From assembly GCF_000970685.1 (NCBI RefSeq), contig NZ_LAJB01000008.1:1-64000 (forward strand): a DNA stretch of 64,000 nt, written 5' to 3'. A model generated the notes under the pieces. That model was not told where the DNA came from and did not search any database. It saw only the letters and a list, made by a program, of their open reading frames with translations. Positions 7,858 to 56,298 of the stretch are shown here, piece after piece. Every line of letters begins with the position of its first letter. The stretch's first letter is position 1. A program made the position numbers and the translations under genes. This DNA is from Domibacillus indicus. Its GTDB lineage: Bacteria; Bacillota; Bacilli; Bacillales; Domibacillaceae.

Positions 7858-9000
7858 ATGCGGGTGTTTGTTTATATTATCGTCTTTTTTTCTTTTTTTG
7901 ACTTGTTTACCCAGCTGCCCATTATGAGCCCGTTTGCAGAATCACTCGGGGCAACGCCGTTTTTAACCGGACTTGTAGTAGGCATGTATTCTTTTTCAAA
8001 TACAGCTGGAAATATACTTTCTGGTGTTTGGACCGATAAAAAAGGGCCCTTCCGGGTGCTTGTAACGGGCCTTTTTGCTGCGGGTGCCGCTCTTTTGCTG
8101 TATCAGACGGCTGCAACTCCGTGGATGCTGCTGCTGATTCGTTTTCTTCATGGCCTGCTGGCCGGCCTGATTACACCTGCTGCCTTTACCTTCCTGGCAA
8201 ATCACTCTGCACAGGATAAAAAAGGAAAGAACGCAGCCGTTTCAGGAGCATTCGTTGGAATGGCAGCAATTATTGGGCCTGCGTTCAGCGGGATTATGGC
8301 AAGCCGGACAAGTGAAACGGCTGTCATTAACACAACAGCAGCTGCGATGTTTATATTGGGGATCGTTGCCCTTTTTGTGCTAAGAAAACTGCCTTACCAG
8401 GCCATTACTGCTCATGAAAGACATATCTCACTACGCGGCTTTTTTCGAAATACTGGTATGCTTAAGGCGTTCACTGGCGCTTTTCTGCTTATGTTTTCTC
8501 AGGGAGTGCTTGCTTATATGCTCCCTTTAAAAGTGATACATCTTGGTTTTGATTCCCAAACAAGCGGCCTTTTATTAAGCACATTTGGCATTGTGGCTAT
8601 TTTTGTGTTTCTTACTCCCATAAACCGCCTGTTTGACCGGCTGCGGCCGGAAACGACATTTTCATTTGGAATCGCAATGATGGGAATCAGCCTTATCTGT
8701 CTTAGCCAGGCAGAGGTTTCTTCTCTTCTTTATATAATTATGGGACTGTATGGAATCGGGTTTGCTTTCTTGTTTCCTTCTATCAATTCACTGCTTGTCG
8801 GCGCGGTTCCCCCGGAAAACCGCGGCAAAGCATATGGCTATTTTTACGCATTTTTCTCGCTTGGAGTAGTGGCAGGATCAACGGTTACAGGCGGACTTTC
8901 CTTATCGCCTTCCCAGGGCCTTTTCTTTACAGGCATCCTGCTTTGCAGCGCCGGCTTTTTTGTGGGAGCCGGCCAACTGAAAAAAGCATCCGCCAAGTAA
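7858..9000 (+). CDS. MFS transporter, probable drug/metabolite exporter
   Basis: This 380-residue major facilitator has about 12 hydrophobic segments. The conserved loop between TM2 and TM3 reads GVWTDKKGPFRVLV, and the middle holds a basic loop near residue 185-200. Size and layout are those of the small Bacillus exporters of the YfkF/YfmO type. A GGAGG ribosome binding site lies nine bases before the ATG. The stop codon sits in the loop of a hairpin that is duplicated downstream on the far side of a short repeat element. The substrate is unknown. Confidence 0.85.
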   Translation: MRVFVYIIVFFSFFDLFTQLPIMSPFAESLGATPFLTGLVVGMYSFSNTAGNILSGVWTDKKGPFRVLVTGLFAAGAALLLYQTAATPWMLLLIRFLHGLLAGLITPAAFTFLANHSAQDKKGKNAAVSGAFVGMAAIIGPAFSGIMASRTSETAVINTTAAAMFILGIVALFVLRKLPYQAITAHERHISLRGFFRNTGMLKAFTGAFLLMFSQGVLAYMLPLKVIHLGFDSQTSGLLLSTFGIVAIFVFLTPINRLFDRLRPETTFSFGIAMMGISLICLSQAEVSSLLYIIMGLYGIGFAFLFPSINSLLVGAVPPENRGKAYGYFYAFFSLGVVAGSTVTGGLSLSPSQGLFFTGILLCSAGFFVGAGQLKKASAK

Positions 9001-9012
9001 GAGCGGATGCTT
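8985..9012 (+). repeat. Left copy of a 28-bp terminator-hairpin direct repeat
   Basis: The hairpin (AGCATCCGC with GCGGATGCTT) contains the MFS stop codon in its loop. An identical 28-bp copy lies at 9164-9191. This left copy has lost the T-tract, which follows only the right copy. Confidence 0.85.
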
Positions 9013-9017
9013 GAAAG

Positions 9018-9157
9018 TGTAAACAAAGTTAGAACTCAGGCTGATTGAAAGCGCCTGTCTTTCAAGGAACGCGGCCGGTTGGGAAGCGGAGTGACCTTTT
9101 GGGGGTCATGAGCATTCACAGCCGGCAAGTGACACCGAAAGCGGGCGTTTGTCAACA
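9018..9157. mobile_element. Element A: 140-bp non-coding element flanked by duplicated terminator
   Basis: The stretch starts TGTAAACAAAG and ends GTTTGTCAACA, giving imperfect terminal inverted repeats (8 of the first 10 bases match). It lies between two identical copies of the MFS terminator hairpin. It has no reading frame of note and one internal hairpin (TTGAAAG/CTTTCAA near 9044-9064). The ends resemble elements B and C. It could be a small non-autonomous transposable element or a structured spacer; which one is not settled. Confidence 0.45.
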
Positions 9158-9163
9158 GCCTGA

Positions 9164-9197
9164 AGCATCCGCCAAGTAAGAGCGGATGCTTTTTTCT
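9164..9197 (+). terminator. Right copy of the MFS terminator hairpin, with T-tract
   Basis: This is an exact copy of the 28-bp hairpin at 8985-9012, here followed by TTTTTTC, so it can terminate transcription. It also abuts the 3' end of the convergent EAL gene. Confidence 0.8.
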
Positions 9198-12920: not shown

Positions 12921-12939
12921 ACCGGCACGCCTTTCACAG

Positions 12940-13170
12940 TGTTGAAAAAGAGAGTCGTCAAGAAGATAGTCTGTTTTTGGGCCGACATGATCTTTCTTTT
13001 GCGGGCTGGAGACGGGCTAGTTTCTTTTCAAAGCTGTATTAGGGGCTGCGGTCTGCCGGCTGCGCTTTTTTGAAGCGAACACCGAACCAGCCATCGTGCT
13101 GGAGACCTGAACGTTCATAAATAGGTTAAATGTAACCTGGAAAAGGTGTAGACAGTTGCTTATTTCAACA
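12940..13170. mobile_element. Element B: 231-bp non-coding repeat with TGTTGAAA ends
   Basis: It begins TGTTGAAAAAGAGAGTCGTC and ends CTTATTTCAACA, giving an 8-bp perfect terminal inverted repeat. Most of its length aligns with element C at 37187-37462, including AGGGGCTGCGGTCTGCCGGC and ATCGTGCT. No coding frame is convincing. A terminator hairpin follows at once at 13181. Together with a few bases on either side it accounts for the whole gap between chr3C and adaB. Confidence 0.65.
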
Positions 13171-13180
13171 GCATGAAAGA

Positions 13181-13207
13181 CGGGCTCTTACAAGAGCCCG
13201 CCTTTTT
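13181..13207 (+). terminator. Terminator right of element B
   Basis: CGGGCTCTTACAAGAGCCCG hairpin followed by CCTTTTT. It serves chr3C and, read the other way, may serve adaB. Confidence 0.8.
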
Positions 13208-36252: not shown

Positions 36253-37122
36253 ATGAAAGACTATTCATTGGGAAATCGTTTATTTAACGTCGTTAACTAC
36301 ACACTGCTCACTTTAATCTCGCTTGCCTGCCTTCTTCCATTTTTAAATGTTATCGCCAGTTCGTTTGCCACAACAGATGAAGTAATGGAAAAATCATTTA
36401 TTTTATTTCCTACTACTTTTTCACTTGATGCTTACACCTTTATTTTTTCAACACCAACCATTTTTAAAAGCCTTGCTGTTTCGATTGGCGTAACGGGTAT
36501 TGGCACACTGGTCAGTATGATCCTTACGGCAACAATGGCCTACGGGTTATCCCGAACTTATTTATATGGCCGGCGTACTCTTAACTTCCTTGTTGTCTTT
36601 ACAATGCTTTTCAGCGGCGGTATGATTCCTACTTATTTAGTAGTAAAAAACCTCGGGCTGATTAACTCCTACTGGGCTCTTATTCTCCCTGTAGCTATCA
36701 GCGCCTTCAACCTTATTATAATGAGAAACTTCTTCCAGGCCATCCCGGACAGCTTAGAGGAATCAGCTAAAATTGATGGCTGCAATGACATTATGATTTT
36801 CTTAAAAATTATTCTGCCGCTTTCCATGCCGTCCATTGCGACTATCTCGCTGTTTTACGCTGTGGCTTACTGGAACGAATACATGAATGCCATTTTATAT
36901 TTAAACGATTCCACCAAATGGCCGATCCAAATTTTGCTTCGCCAAATTGTAATCGTTTCCAGCGGTATGCAGGCGGACACAACTGCCGTTGATATTGTTC
37001 CTCCCGCACAAACTGTAAAGATGGCTGTTATTGCCGTGGCCACTCTGCCAATGCTGATTATTTATCCATTCCTTCAGAAGTACTTCGTAAAAGGAGCGCT
37101 TGTCGGCTCTGTCAAAGCATAA
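36253..37122 (+). CDS. ABC sugar permease, LplC/YtcP type
   Basis: The 289-residue permease has six membrane segments, the N-terminal pattern NVVNYTLLTLISLACLLPFLNVIASSFA and the EAA loop EESAKIDGCNDIMIFLKIILPLSMPS. It would pair with the LplB-type permease on the other strand. Being divergent from its partner is unusual, as these genes normally lie side by side. GGGAGG precedes the ATG. Its terminator hairpin is duplicated on either side of element C. Confidence 0.9.
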   Translation: MKDYSLGNRLFNVVNYTLLTLISLACLLPFLNVIASSFATTDEVMEKSFILFPTTFSLDAYTFIFSTPTIFKSLAVSIGVTGIGTLVSMILTATMAYGLSRTYLYGRRTLNFLVVFTMLFSGGMIPTYLVVKNLGLINSYWALILPVAISAFNLIIMRNFFQAIPDSLEESAKIDGCNDIMIFLKIILPLSMPSIATISLFYAVAYWNEYMNAILYLNDSTKWPIQILLRQIVIVSSGMQADTTAVDIVPPAQTVKMAVIAVATLPMLIIYPFLQKYFVKGALVGSVKA

Positions 37123-37151
37123 GCAGCCTGTGCCAATAAGAACAACAAGTA

Positions 37152-37180
37152 TAAGCCGGATTCAGGAAGAATCCGGCTTA
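37152..37180 (+). terminator. Hairpin after the LplC-type gene, left copy
   Basis: TAAGCCGGATTC pairs with GAATCCGGCTTA. A copy with three base differences lies at 37469-37497, on the far side of element C. Confidence 0.75.
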
Positions 37181-37186
37181 TCAAAG

Positions 37187-37462
37187 TGTTGAAAAAGAGA
37201 GTCGTCAAGAAGATATTTCGTTTTTTAGCTAAAATTATTTTTCTTTTATGGGCTGGAAATAGGCTATTTTCTTTTAAAAGCAGTGTCAGGGGCTGCGGTC
37301 TGCCGGCTGAATTTCCTCCACGACTGCCCCGTGAAAAGCGGAATGCCGCCACTTCTATGCCCGGGCAAAGCACGGCGGTTATCCATCGTGCTAGAGATCC
37401 GAACGTTTATAAATGTGTTGGACTTAACCTGGGAAAGGTATAAAGAGCCGCTTATTTCAACA
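37187..37462. mobile_element. Element C: 276-bp non-coding repeat with TGTTGAAA ends
   Basis: It begins TGTTGAAAAAGAGAGTCGTC and ends CTTATTTCAACA, the same ends as element B. It aligns with B over most of its length but carries about 50 extra bases in the middle (around 37315-37375). It sits between two near-identical terminator hairpins. Frames crossing it are not convincing. It fills the gap between the LplC-type gene and the AraC regulator gene. Confidence 0.65.
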
Positions 37463-37468
37463 GCATGG

Positions 37469-37497
37469 TAAGCCGGGTTCAGGAAGAGCCCGGCTTA
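37469..37497. terminator. Hairpin right of element C, second copy
   Basis: TAAGCCGGGTTC pairs with GAGCCCGGCTTA. Of the three changes from the left copy, at least one pair is compensatory (A-T to G-C), so the stem is kept. It also lies 15 bases past the convergent regulator gene. Confidence 0.7.
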
Positions 37498-37512
37498 TGC
37501 TTTTACAAGCTG

Positions 37513-39783
37513 TTATTCGTTTTCTATGGACAGGCTGCCAAAGCGGTTTTGTTCGCGATACTTTCCTGGTGTCGTTCCTTCCATTTTGCGAAAGAACCGG
37601 ATAAAATTTTGCGAATTATTGTATTGTAGACGCTCGGCAATTTCTTTTACGGACATATTTGTGTCTTTCAGCCATGTTTTCGCTACAGTATACCGGTAAT
37701 TGGACAAGTAGTCACTGAAAGACTGGCCAAACTCCTTTTTAAAAATTTCACTTAAATAATTCGGATTGTAATGAAGCCGGGAAGCGATTGTATCAAGGGT
37801 TAATTTTGTATCAAATTCCTGCTGGATCACATGAATAATTTTTTCAGAGACTGATTTATATTGAGAGCTTTCTCTTTCTTCCATAAGCTTAATCATCGGG
37901 TACACAATTTCCTCTTTAATAAATGCCTCTATTTCCTCTGCCGTTTCCATTTCAAAAGCAGCTTTATACAATGTTTTTTGATCTTTTACCATTAACGAAT
38001 CCATTCCTAAAAGCTGCATAAGCTCAATCACATCATTAATAAACCGCATGATGTGTATTTCCAGCTCATACGCGCCCCGGTTTTGCGCAAACAAATCGGA
38101 CAGCAAAGAATCAAGCTCTCTCCTGGCTGTTTCACTGTCACCCGCTTTAATAGAGTCAAAAAGCCGGTTTTCTAGCAATTTCGGAAAATAGCTTGTTTTT
38201 ACTTCTGGCGATTCAAACACTTTTTCGTAAAAAACAATTGCTTCTTTGCCCGCCTTCAGCCGGTATTTCAGTGAACTGAATCCTTGCTCGAGCGCCTGAT
38301 TGCTTTCACTTAATTGATAAAAAGGCCTGCTGATTCCTACACTGATTGATACATTAAACAATTCTTTAACCGTTCTTTGAATGGTTTCAGCATACGCCTG
38401 AATAGCAATAGGTCTTTGCTTTTCCTCTTCCTCACAGCCAATAAAAACGGCTGCCTGGGTTTTAGAGTCAATTGCTGCCACAGCAAGCCGCTCATTTTCT
38501 TTAATGACTTCTGAGACAATCTGGCTTATTCCGAATAACAGTACATCTTTTTCTTTACTCGTGTATTTTTGTGAATCCAGCTGGTCAATTTGAAGAACAA
38601 GTACATATAAATGCGTCCACTGAAGAGGATAGCCGAATTTCTCCAGCTCTTCCCGGATCTCATCTTCCGTTTTTCTTCCGTGAAGCAAATTAATTGTAAA
38701 TAATGTTTTTAACTGTTCTAATTGACTTGTAACCATATTTTCTAATGATTGGTTTTGGTCCAGAACATTGCGAATCGATGTACCAATCAATTCAAATTCA
38801 TCTTTATACTGGCCGCTTTTGGTTCTGGGAATCAGCGTTTGAAGCTCTTGAATCGGTCTTGAGAAATAGTTCGAGCTTAAATAGGCGATAATAACCGTTA
38901 ATGCAAGCATAAGGATGCTCATCATAACTGTCCCAATAACAGTAGGCTTCATCGCCGCAGAAAATTCTGTATCGTCAATTTTTGAAACGTATATCCAGCT
39001 GTTGTACATTGATTTGGAGTACACAAGCTTAGACGAATCTTCCTTCGCATCCGTGTTTATGATGCCGATTTGCTGATGATCCTCCTCCATTAACGCGGCA
39101 ATGTCCTCCGCCTTTATTGCTTTAGTATCTGCTGCACCGCTCTGGTATACCAGCTGGCCATTCTGATTATAAATAAAAATCGGGCTGGATTCCTCTTCCT
39201 TATAAACCAGGTTTGTTACGGACTCTAACGGGATATGAATAATTAGTGCTCCCGATTTTTTAGATTTATGCAAAGGCACTTTTTTTACGAGCTGAATTTC
39301 ATTCGGGTGGCTTTCTTTTTTCAGCCAGGCTGATGCATGAGGCAGTTCCATATAATCTTTATAGAGCTGACTTTCCTGTGAATCTGTTAACTGCTTTAAT
39401 CCATATTGATTAATGCTCCAGTTCCCGTCAAAGCTGACCAGTTCGGCAGTCGTCTGGTTGGGGCCAAATGTTGAGATATAATTTAACCGCTGATCGATGG
39501 TCTGATAAATATCAAAATGACTGGCAGCCAGTGGCTGCTGGATAATGCGTTCAAAAGACGGATCGTACACATAGGAATTAAACGTATAGTCAACAGCCTG
39601 GAGTTTTTGCTCGATTGTATTCATCGTTTGAACGACGTTTTCCTGCTTTTCGAGCGTTATCTTTTCTTCCAGTGAATCCTTCGTAAAAAAGTAAGCAAAT
39701 CCGTTAAATAAAATCATAGCGAGGACGCCGGTGACAACAAAAGGCAAAAAGATCCGATAAAAATATTTTGGTTTATTCTTCAT
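37513..39783 (-). CDS. ytdP: Membrane-bound AraC-family sensor-regulator, YtdP type
   Basis: The 756-residue protein has an N-terminal membrane helix (FLPFVVTGVLAMILFNGFAYF), an extracellular sensor region to about residue 280 and a second helix (VIGTVMMSILMLALTVIIAYL). A HAMP-like linker and cytoplasmic region follow, ending in an AraC DNA-binding domain (KLTLDTIASRLHYNPNYLSEIFKKEFGQSFSDYL...MSVKEIAERLQYNNSQNFIRFFRKMEGTTPGKYR). B. subtilis YtdP/YesS have this design beside rhamnogalacturonan genes. It probably senses pectic oligomers or the loaded receptor and activates the operon. Confidence 0.88.
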   Translation of the reverse strand: MKNKPKYFYRIFLPFVVTGVLAMILFNGFAYFFTKDSLEEKITLEKQENVVQTMNTIEQKLQAVDYTFNSYVYDPSFERIIQQPLAASHFDIYQTIDQRLNYISTFGPNQTTAELVSFDGNWSINQYGLKQLTDSQESQLYKDYMELPHASAWLKKESHPNEIQLVKKVPLHKSKKSGALIIHIPLESVTNLVYKEEESSPIFIYNQNGQLVYQSGAADTKAIKAEDIAALMEEDHQQIGIINTDAKEDSSKLVYSKSMYNSWIYVSKIDDTEFSAAMKPTVIGTVMMSILMLALTVIIAYLSSNYFSRPIQELQTLIPRTKSGQYKDEFELIGTSIRNVLDQNQSLENMVTSQLEQLKTLFTINLLHGRKTEDEIREELEKFGYPLQWTHLYVLVLQIDQLDSQKYTSKEKDVLLFGISQIVSEVIKENERLAVAAIDSKTQAAVFIGCEEEEKQRPIAIQAYAETIQRTVKELFNVSISVGISRPFYQLSESNQALEQGFSSLKYRLKAGKEAIVFYEKVFESPEVKTSYFPKLLENRLFDSIKAGDSETARRELDSLLSDLFAQNRGAYELEIHIMRFINDVIELMQLLGMDSLMVKDQKTLYKAAFEMETAEEIEAFIKEEIVYPMIKLMEERESSQYKSVSEKIIHVIQQEFDTKLTLDTIASRLHYNPNYLSEIFKKEFGQSFSDYLSNYRYTVAKTWLKDTNMSVKEIAERLQYNNSQNFIRFFRKMEGTTPGKYREQNRFGSLSIENE

Positions 39784-39819: not shown

Positions 39820-39973
39820 AAGATTATCCATTATATTACTCAAAGAAGTCAATATGATTTCAGAAGCATTAATGAGAAAAGAAATAAAACCGACAAATAA
39901 AAAGCAGACCGCAGTTCATGATCCTGCTTTTGAAAAAAGACCGCGCATTTCCGGCTGATTTGTTCATTCATCA

Positions 39974-46500: not shown

Positions 46501-46589
46501 GAGAGCCTGGCAACCTGACGACCATATGCTTATTAAGCATTTAGGCTCACGGCTTTGCGTCCTTTCCTTTCGGAGAAGTTTGCCTTTTA
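46501..46589 (-). ncRNA. Cyclic-di-GMP class I (GEMM-I) riboswitch
   Basis: On the minus strand the conserved GEMM-I blocks appear in order: AAGGCAAACTTCTCC, the GAAA tetraloop, GGACGCAAAGCC, the tetraloop receptor GCCTAAATG...TATGG, and GTCGTCAGGTTGCCAGGCTC. Spacing fits the Vibrio Vc2 aptamer. It precedes the secreted-protein gene. Whether ligand turns expression on or off cannot be read with certainty. Confidence 0.88.
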
Positions 46590-46652
46590 CAGATTATTTT
46601 GTACCACTATTATACATCCCATAAATACTTTTTGCCTAGTCCTTTTATCAGA

Positions 46653-54365: not shown

Positions 54366-54550
54366 TTTATTTCCTCCGTCTCCATATACCACACATTTTA
54401 CATAAAAAGAAAAATGAATCGGCATACAAATACATTTTGTTTAAAATATATTGTTATAAAATCTAACATGTTTGTTGAACCTCTTCCTTTTTCTCCTTAT
54501 ACTCCATGATATCAAATATATAAGGGTTCTTATTAATGCAATCAAGAACA

Positions 54551-54643
54551 AAATTGCTCTCTAGGGTTCCGGTTGAAAAACGTCTGGTCCGAGAGAGAGC
54601 GTACAGTTTTGCTGTATACACGGAGGGACAAAAGCCCGGGAGA
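54551..54643 (+). ncRNA. Guanidine-I (ykkC) riboswitch, first copy
   Basis: The conserved blocks CTAGGGTTCCG, CTGGTCCGAGAG, ACACGGAGGGACAAAAGCCCGGGAG appear in order. GCTCTCT at the 5' side pairs with AGAGAGC to form P1. The 3' end of the aptamer forms one arm of the following terminator, so guanidine binding would prevent termination (an ON switch, as known for this class). It controls the APC permease gene. Confidence 0.95.
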
Positions 54644-54680
54644 ATTTTTTTACATAAAATTCTCCCGGGCTTTTTGTTTT
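54631..54680 (+). terminator. Riboswitch-controlled terminator before the permease
   Basis: AAAGCCCGGGAGAATTTT pairs with AAAATTCTCCCGGGCTTT, then TTGTTTTT. It overlaps the aptamer 3' arm. Confidence 0.92.
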
Positions 54681-56074: not shown

Positions 56075-56166
56075 GATAATCTGACACGTTTATTGTTTTC
56101 AGTTTTTTCAGACTGCTATACTTGTTGCATAAACCAATAAAGGTTTCCACAATGAGTTGGAAACAA

Positions 56167-56267
56167 AAAGCTGCCTAGGGTTCCGTTTAAAGAAACTTCT
56201 TTAAAGACTGGTCCAAGAGGGAGCGTGCAGCAGCTGCTGTATACACGGAAGGATAAAAGCCTGGGAG
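56167..56267 (+). ncRNA. Guanidine-I (ykkC) riboswitch, second copy
   Basis: CTAGGGTTCCG, GACTGGTCCAAGAGG and ACACGGAAGGATAAAAGCCTGGGAG are present in the right order. The P2 hairpin (TTTAAAGAAAC/ACTTCTTTAAA) differs from that of the first copy, so the two are not a recent duplication. It controls the catabolic operon. Confidence 0.95.
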
Positions 56268-56298
56268 ACGATCATGTCCCGGGCTTTTATCCTTTTTA
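56251..56298 (+). terminator. Riboswitch-controlled terminator before the catabolic operon
   Basis: GGATAAAAGCC pairs with GGCTTTTATCC (inner GGGA with TCCC), followed by TTTTTATTTTTT; the 5' arm belongs to the aptamer. Confidence 0.92.

Follow-up and report, generated by a model that had tools for sequence, protein, structure and literature searches.

The locus described here lies in a stretch of 64,000 nucleotides of Domibacillus indicus (hereafter, the window), in the gap between an lplC-like gene and a convergent yesN-like gene (Table 1), and is occupied by a 276-bp segment, TGTTGAAAAAGAG...TTATTTCAACA (element C, 37187-37462), which opens with TGT, closes with ACA, contains no open reading frame of 100 amino acids and is found between two hairpins. 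The flanks form a direct repeat, TAAGCCGGATTCAGGAAGAATCCGGCTTAT at 37152-37181 and TAAGCCGGGTTCAGGAAGAGCCCGGCTTAT at 37469-37498, the two being 90% identical and each folding as a hairpin with the loop AGGAA; the 3 differences in 30 positions correspond to one compensatory exchange of A-T for G-C and one change from T-A to T-G. A preliminary description of this DNA had reported a terminator hairpin on both sides of the element, with three differences and at least one compensatory pair, and had taken C for a relative of another element of the window, element B; the first two observations are confirmed, and the kinship is borne out by an alignment of C and its surroundings to B (12929-13204) with 69% identity over 322 columns.

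Table 1. Features of the window that are discussed in the text (positions are those of the window).
Feature	Position	Strand	Remarks
Element A, left hairpin	8984..9012	none	identical to the right copy
Element A	9013..9162	+	150-bp MITE; IS1182-like ends GAAAG-TGTAAACAAAG...GTTTGTCAACA-GCCTG
Element A, right hairpin	9163..9191	none	
Element B, C family	about 12935..13175	+	only the right-hand hairpin intact
lplC-like permease gene, upstream of element C	36253..37122	+	open reading frame and translation; name from the preliminary description; orthologue in G010 beside the same terminator
Left terminator hairpin (copy of the target duplication)	37151..37181	none	3′ of the lplC-like gene; single orthologous hairpin in G010
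Element C with its 5-nt outer ends	37182..37467 (286 bp)	+	CAAAG-TGTTGAAA...TTTCAACA-GCATG
Conserved left end of the C family	37187..37311	+	about 125 bp; without a consensus RNA fold
Conserved right end of the C family	37342..37462	+	about 120 bp
Right terminator hairpin copy	37468..37498	none	GCTTTT directly after
Convergent gene of 756 aa, putatively AraC/YesN-like	37513..39783	-	judged by reading; orthologues in G010 and G001
C-family left-end fragment	39904..39958	-	

In the window, 48 hairpins reached a stem score of 8 or more in a hairpin finder, and among them pairs lying 60-1800 bp apart were sought. Only two such pairs were alike by the threshold applied, and they flank the TGT...ACA elements A and C, which makes chance pairing unlikely and upholds the earlier view of two loci at which such an element is nested in a duplicated hairpin peculiar to that locus. 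The hairpins around element A (8984-9191) are identical over 29 nt; the stop codon of the gene upstream falls within the target hairpin, and the duplication leaves that gene whole.

The orthologous loci free of the element, which the preliminary description had proposed to look for, do exist. Genomes are labelled here G000 for D. indicus itself, G010 for D. robiginosus, and G001, G002 and so on for the others of the genus. In G010 the gap between the lplC and yesN orthologues contains one hairpin, AGTAAGCCGGATTC-TGACCC-GAATCCGGCTTACT, and no element, in the place where the window has two copies of the hairpin and element C. As for the site of element A, 7 of the 9 other matches in the genus were read: in five genomes (G001, G002, G004, G008 and G012) there is a single hairpin without an element, in G010 the same terminator carries an A-type element, inverted relative to A, beside which a single hairpin can be recognised, and the match in G006 belongs to a different context. 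Most likely, then, the second hairpin arose through the insertion, as a target-site duplication.

Element C belongs to a family that is numerous in its own genome, where a DNA search gave 37 match pieces (certain copies being split in two) and a profile of the left end gave 59 matches at E≤0.01. Such left ends are present in 8 of the 13 Domibacillus genomes, and under stricter filters 5 of 397 genomes drawn from the order were matched, all of them Domibacillus; a 32-base DNA match to element C in another family of the order (G031) did not recur under the left-end profile, and a search of plasmids gave no match to the C family. The ends of the family have the form CATAG-TGTTGAAAA and, as reverse complement, CATGC-TGTTGAAAA. 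On RNA folding, the left end yields 0 consensus pairs and the right end a weak consensus fold, so that these conserved ends look like protein-binding DNA ends. An RNA element was considered for the identity of C and rejected, the left end having no fold and Rfam at gathering thresholds recognising in the window three riboswitches, all elsewhere (Guanidine-I at 54550-54644 and 56164-56269, and c-di-GMP-I at 46506-46594). In longer copies (L010, L028) GC-rich palindromic modules in the middle of the element seem, by eye, to give much of the variation in size. On three contigs of G001 (C7, C14 and C18) C-family left ends are found 59-73 bases from the contig start, and these repeats may break the assembly.

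The pairing of the hairpins was surveyed over 79 left ends scoring 30 bits or more; right ends, sought with interior profiles, were found for 47, of which 46 could be tested, the 4 nt adjoining the element being dropped from the flank scores and ties counted as best in row. The mean similarity of a copy's own flanks was 19.5 as opposed to 7.1 for cross pairs, with a maximum of 9.76 in 10,000 permutations; own flanks were best in their row in 34 of the 46 copies, and scored above every cross pair in 28. Two of the right-end profiles had been seeded with copies chosen for their duplicated hairpins, 16 of these seeds being among the 46, and among the 30 non-seed copies 18 rank first in their row, one of them tied. 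The genome of D. indicus contributes 8 of the 12 pairs that were not best in row. When left ends are taken with or without a right end, 76 could be tested, and for 42 of these a downstream copy of the adjoining hairpin scores beyond the 99th percentile of cross scores (9/30 in G000, 20/26 in G010, 12/19 in G001 and 1/1 in G002); by a stricter measure, the cross maximum of 26, the number falls to 16 of 76. The duplications of the C family are 20-38 nt long.

The 150-bp copies of the A family, which provides the cleaner of the two samples, are found in 8 of the 13 genomes of the genus, with 40 scored matches in G000, from which 20 copies were picked by DNA match among the better-scoring and away from contig ends. 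Nineteen of these 20 have a duplicated hairpin (own mean 21.4 vs 6.5 for cross pairs, cross maximum 13). In a set from eight genomes, which has 3 copies in common with the former sample, 23 of 29 testable copies were best in row, and 3 of the 29 own pairs exceeded the cross maximum of 24, some of the loci being orthologous sites.

The survey thus answers in two ways to what was expected at the outset, namely, that copies should be flanked by paired hairpins, and that a majority lacking them would speak against a terminator-seeking element. The A family and the C-family copies of the two sister species, D. robiginosus and G001, mostly retain the pair; the C-family copies of D. indicus mostly do not, and taken alone would count against the idea. 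Since the copies in the sister species and the A family pass, we infer that the missing pairs in D. indicus are a matter of decay, and the proposal of a terminator-seeking mobile element is supported by the duplication of locus-specific hairpins in both families.

Transposase genes were sought in the genus, and this brought up members of the IS1182 family (NCBIfam NF033551). One of them, L113 in D. robiginosus (475 bits), is found between identical 23-nt hairpins, with the ends CAGAC-TGTAGACAAA...TTTGTCTACA-GTCTG. In a sample of 35 IS1182 loci (30 from a search of the order and 5 from the genus), 20 have exact palindromic direct repeats of 19-42 nt directly outside ends of the CAG-N2-TG...CTG type. 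Flank scores between different loci are 16 or more in 31 of 1190 comparisons, up to 32, probably owing to the shared ends of the insertion sequences, and because these cross-locus scores are also high the result rests on the exactness, palindromy and position of the repeats. In a tree of the 35 transposases, in which, by the program's own warning, L112, L115 and L178 sit on long branches and long branches meet, all 20 hairpin loci fall in one clade of 23 with support 95/93; the other members of this clade (L114, L171 and L173) have no hairpin repeat, and outside it hairpin repeats were found at 0 of 12 loci, ten with longer matched transposase stretches plus the genus loci L112 and L115. The matched stretch measures 433-440 aa in the hairpin clade as against 497-519 aa in those ten, which (L153, L158, L174 and L176-L182) form one clade without hairpin repeats, some of their ends resembling GGAGCTGTCTCAAAAG.

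The same form of repeat is found beyond this sample. Eight plasmid loci were fetched out of 50 matches listed, and 6 of the 8 (Staphylococcus, Peribacillus, two Rhizobium, Aminobacter and Providencia, that is, two phyla) have hairpin repeats, those of Enterococcus ISEfa7 and Sphingobium having none. Among 20 IS1182 copies from five genomes, 4 of them already counted among the other loci, 19 have hairpin repeats, the ends of the repeats at L246 and L247 having been read directly. Over 26 hairpin loci of insertion sequences the repeat length is 19-42 nt, with a median of 23.5. Nearly or wholly identical copies within one genome differ in the length of the repeat: five in G270, identical over 1523 bp, have repeats of 22, 28, 19, 26 and 25 nt, every one of which is the hairpin of its own site, and five in G258, at most 4 substitutions and one gap apart, have repeats of 23, 24, 27, 33 and 23 nt. 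Three copies in G093 (L246, L247 and L248) share the hairpin core CACACCAATTATGGTGTG and have repeats of 22, 18 and 34 nt centred on it, from which the cuts are read as symmetric about the hairpin, at a variable height on the A/T-rich stem and not always at its full foot; elsewhere the repeat ends before the flanking A/T tract (e.g., at L157). The habit of duplicating hairpins is not family-wide, as two IS1182 elements, ISPse1 (PMC3281130) and ISCaa15 (PMC3196728), are listed with 4-bp repeats in the accessible parts of those papers; ISfinder is cited for direct repeats of 2-60 bp in the family in the accessible part of a 2020 paper on IS982 (PMC7335449).

Further measures concern the duplicated hairpins themselves. 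At one of the copies surveyed, L261, only the right hairpin remains. In 27 gap-free hairpin pairs, differences between the copies are rarer at paired positions (34/626) than at unpaired ones (22/174), with 4 compensatory changes observed, where a simple null model averages 0.27 and never exceeds 2 in 500 runs, and 14 broken pairs, where that model averages 19 and goes no lower than 12. The earlier suggestion that both hairpins are kept as stems thereby receives modest support. At least 4 T within the 8 nt after the right copy are found in 21 of 32 repeats of the C family, 17 of 22 of the A family and 24 of 26 at loci of insertion sequences; a centred self-complementarity of at least 0.8 is found in 12/32, 15/22 and 19/24, respectively, and in 0.14% of random 28-mers. 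As to orientation relative to the terminator, comparison of T after the right copy with A before the left copy gave no clear difference (Wilcoxon p 0.80 for C, 0.054 for A and 0.16 for insertion sequences).

It is probable that C is to be placed with IS1182 and is transposed by a transposase of this family, because its ends appear to resemble CA-N3-TGTNGANAA, because the hairpin type of target duplication is common to the C family and the IS1182 elements, and because there are four chimeric copies. The likeness of the ends was judged by eye against IS1182 ends such as CAGAC-TGTAGACAAA and CAGGC-TGTTGAGAAA; certain IS1182 ends depart from this form (L156 with CGT, L163 with GAGGAA, and the proteobacterial plasmid elements with TGC). 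The ends nearest to those of C belong to L112, TGCTGAAAAAGTC, which has a 10-nt non-hairpin repeat and a transposase outside the hairpin clade. The chimeras (L007, L022, L072 and L090) have a C-type left end and a right end of the IS1182/A type (TTGTCTACA or TTGTCCACA) between duplicated hairpins, and one transposase may be able to accept both types of end. At three further loci (L045, L049 and L086) a stretch of the TTGTCTACA-type end is followed by a hairpin and then by a C-type left end, and here the same terminator appears to have been struck by two elements. In the draft genome of D. indicus (99.42% complete) there were 0 matches to the IS1182 transposase at E≤0.001, and no autonomous element with TGTTGAAAA ends was found around the genus transposases inspected (10 + 5 loci).

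Ordinarily, a DDE transposase cuts the two strands of its target at a fixed stagger, and the length of the target duplication is treated as a constant of the transposase. In the case of C, a DDE transposase of the IS1182 family, acting in trans, would act on the ends CA-N3-TGTTGAAAA...TTTCAACA-N3-TG and carry the element into the hairpin of the intrinsic terminator that separates the lplC-like gene from the yesN-like one; strand transfer would take place at two symmetric points, on each strand at the 5′ side of the hairpin, and repair would then copy the hairpin to both sides of the element. We hold with considerable confidence this overall account, that is, that C is an IS1182-type MITE carried by such a transposase into the lplC/yesN terminator, the hairpin having been copied by repair. 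How the target is recognised is a further step. It would be read as an extruded cruciform or hairpin, and in the simplest geometry an attack on opposite strands of the four-way junction of the cruciform would bring the two points close together in space whatever the length of the stem; the junction can migrate within the stem, and the three lengths in G093 would be in keeping with this. As the palindromic duplication varies with the hairpin for identical elements, the cut sites are set by the hairpin, and we incline, if only slightly, to the view that one IS1182 clade picks both of them from the shape of its target, on opposite strands of the junction, so that the duplication is always palindromic and centred on the hairpin, with a length set by the position of the junction.

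Other explanations for the doubled hairpins have been weighed against this one. That they belong to the element itself, as its own terminators at both ends, might be suggested by the many copies in which they abut it; however, hairpins at different loci differ in sequence, those that face each other at one locus agree, and the same hairpin is found alone at orthologous loci free of the element, all of which leaves this reading next to no probability. Duplication could also have come about without a transposase, by template switching during replication, which hairpins are able to provoke, with the trapping of a repeat, or because two terminators were selected for, and some selection or conversion is indeed evident in the paired hairpins; but the element ends recur and have inverted repeats, the same duplication is found at different sites around IS1182 copies that encode a transposase and share their ends, and element-free sites exist, so that this origin is highly improbable. 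A different question is whether the insertion at the yesN terminator could be ancestral and common to the species, instead of the target having been struck repeatedly. In its favour, the terminator beside the yesN orthologue of G001 is likewise occupied by a C-family element, L064; nevertheless, the left neighbour gene is different there, D. robiginosus is element-free at this terminator, and its element at the terminator of A is related but oppositely oriented. Moreover, the left ends most similar to that of C, six in number, without exception belong to G000, and the six most similar to that of L064 likewise to G001, although gene conversion among copies could mimic this, and since the nearest left ends of each come from its own genome, C and L064 are read as separate hits on the yesN terminator. 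A common ancestral insertion is accordingly judged improbable.

It might be, finally, that C is a MITE of some other kind of transposon with TGT...ACA ends, for example of the IS1202 group, and that the hairpin merely happens to fall within a long duplication. The IS1202 family does have TGT...ACA ends, which are Tn7-like, with duplications of 16-28 bp in one subgroup and no target found, according to the accessible text of PMC10132070, and the words "hairpin" and "palindrom" are absent from the main text of that paper. These ends and long duplications are, however, also common to the IS1182 elements, and are therefore not diagnostic. The IS1202 transposase (NF033593) as driver was rejected: it gave no match above the cut-off in the 13 genomes of the genus, and the two weak matches that were checked are IS1182 proteins. 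The duplications, besides, are centred on hairpins and variable in length in both the C family and the IS1182 elements, and the chimeras have IS1182-type ends. An origin of this kind is thus unlikely, and the placement of C with IS1182 is preferred.

Terminator-hairpin duplication by insertion accounts for the duplicated terminators of the window, and the insertion likely does little harm, as each direction of transcription would retain one complete terminator. It shows how mobile elements can settle at gene ends in numbers, as the A family has done with its 40 matches, while keeping a terminator on each side. If the target is indeed read by its shape, the rule followed would differ from the fixed stagger usual in DDE transposition, it would account for the long and variable repeats reported for the IS1182 family, and it would provide a near-harmless landing site in which the terminator is copied rather than broken. 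Lengths set by the hairpin suggest why values from 2 to 60 bp are cited for IS1182, and the identical insertion sequences of a single genome with repeats that follow the hairpin (19-28 nt in G270) make shape-directed targeting directly testable.

Among known systems, group IIC introns insert, like C, at terminator hairpins; to our knowledge, a target duplication is not expected of them, and C differs in having inverted-repeat DNA ends, Rfam recognising in the window the three riboswitches only. A literature search on Domibacillus gave no match. Within the IS1182 family, IS1272 and TnSha1 of staphylococci target, like C, stem-loops, including proven terminators, without sequence specificity, according to the accessible portions of PMC4923244 and PMC5678879; in those portions the hairpin is reported as deleted or replaced without duplication (insertion into terminator hairpins with partial deletion in Furi et al., 2016, PMC4923244), whereas C has two copies, which speaks against a replacement of the IS1272 kind for C. 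Duplication of the whole stem-loop is given in the accessible part of PMC5678879 as a hypothetical pathway b only, whose outcome is the one observed at C, and as an observed event was not found in the literature searched, in what was accessible of it, ISfinder and most subscription literature being outside its scope. The closest likeness is to the IS1182 hairpin clade, which has, as C has, a hairpin directly outside ends like CA-N3-TG and direct repeats that are terminator-like hairpins, C differing in its lack of a transposase and in an inner end sequence unlike that of the IS1182 ends given above. Hairpin targeting within the IS1182 family was known beforehand; what is added here are two MITE families of Domibacillus and, should the reading of the target by its shape be correct, a duplication set by that shape in one IS1182 clade.
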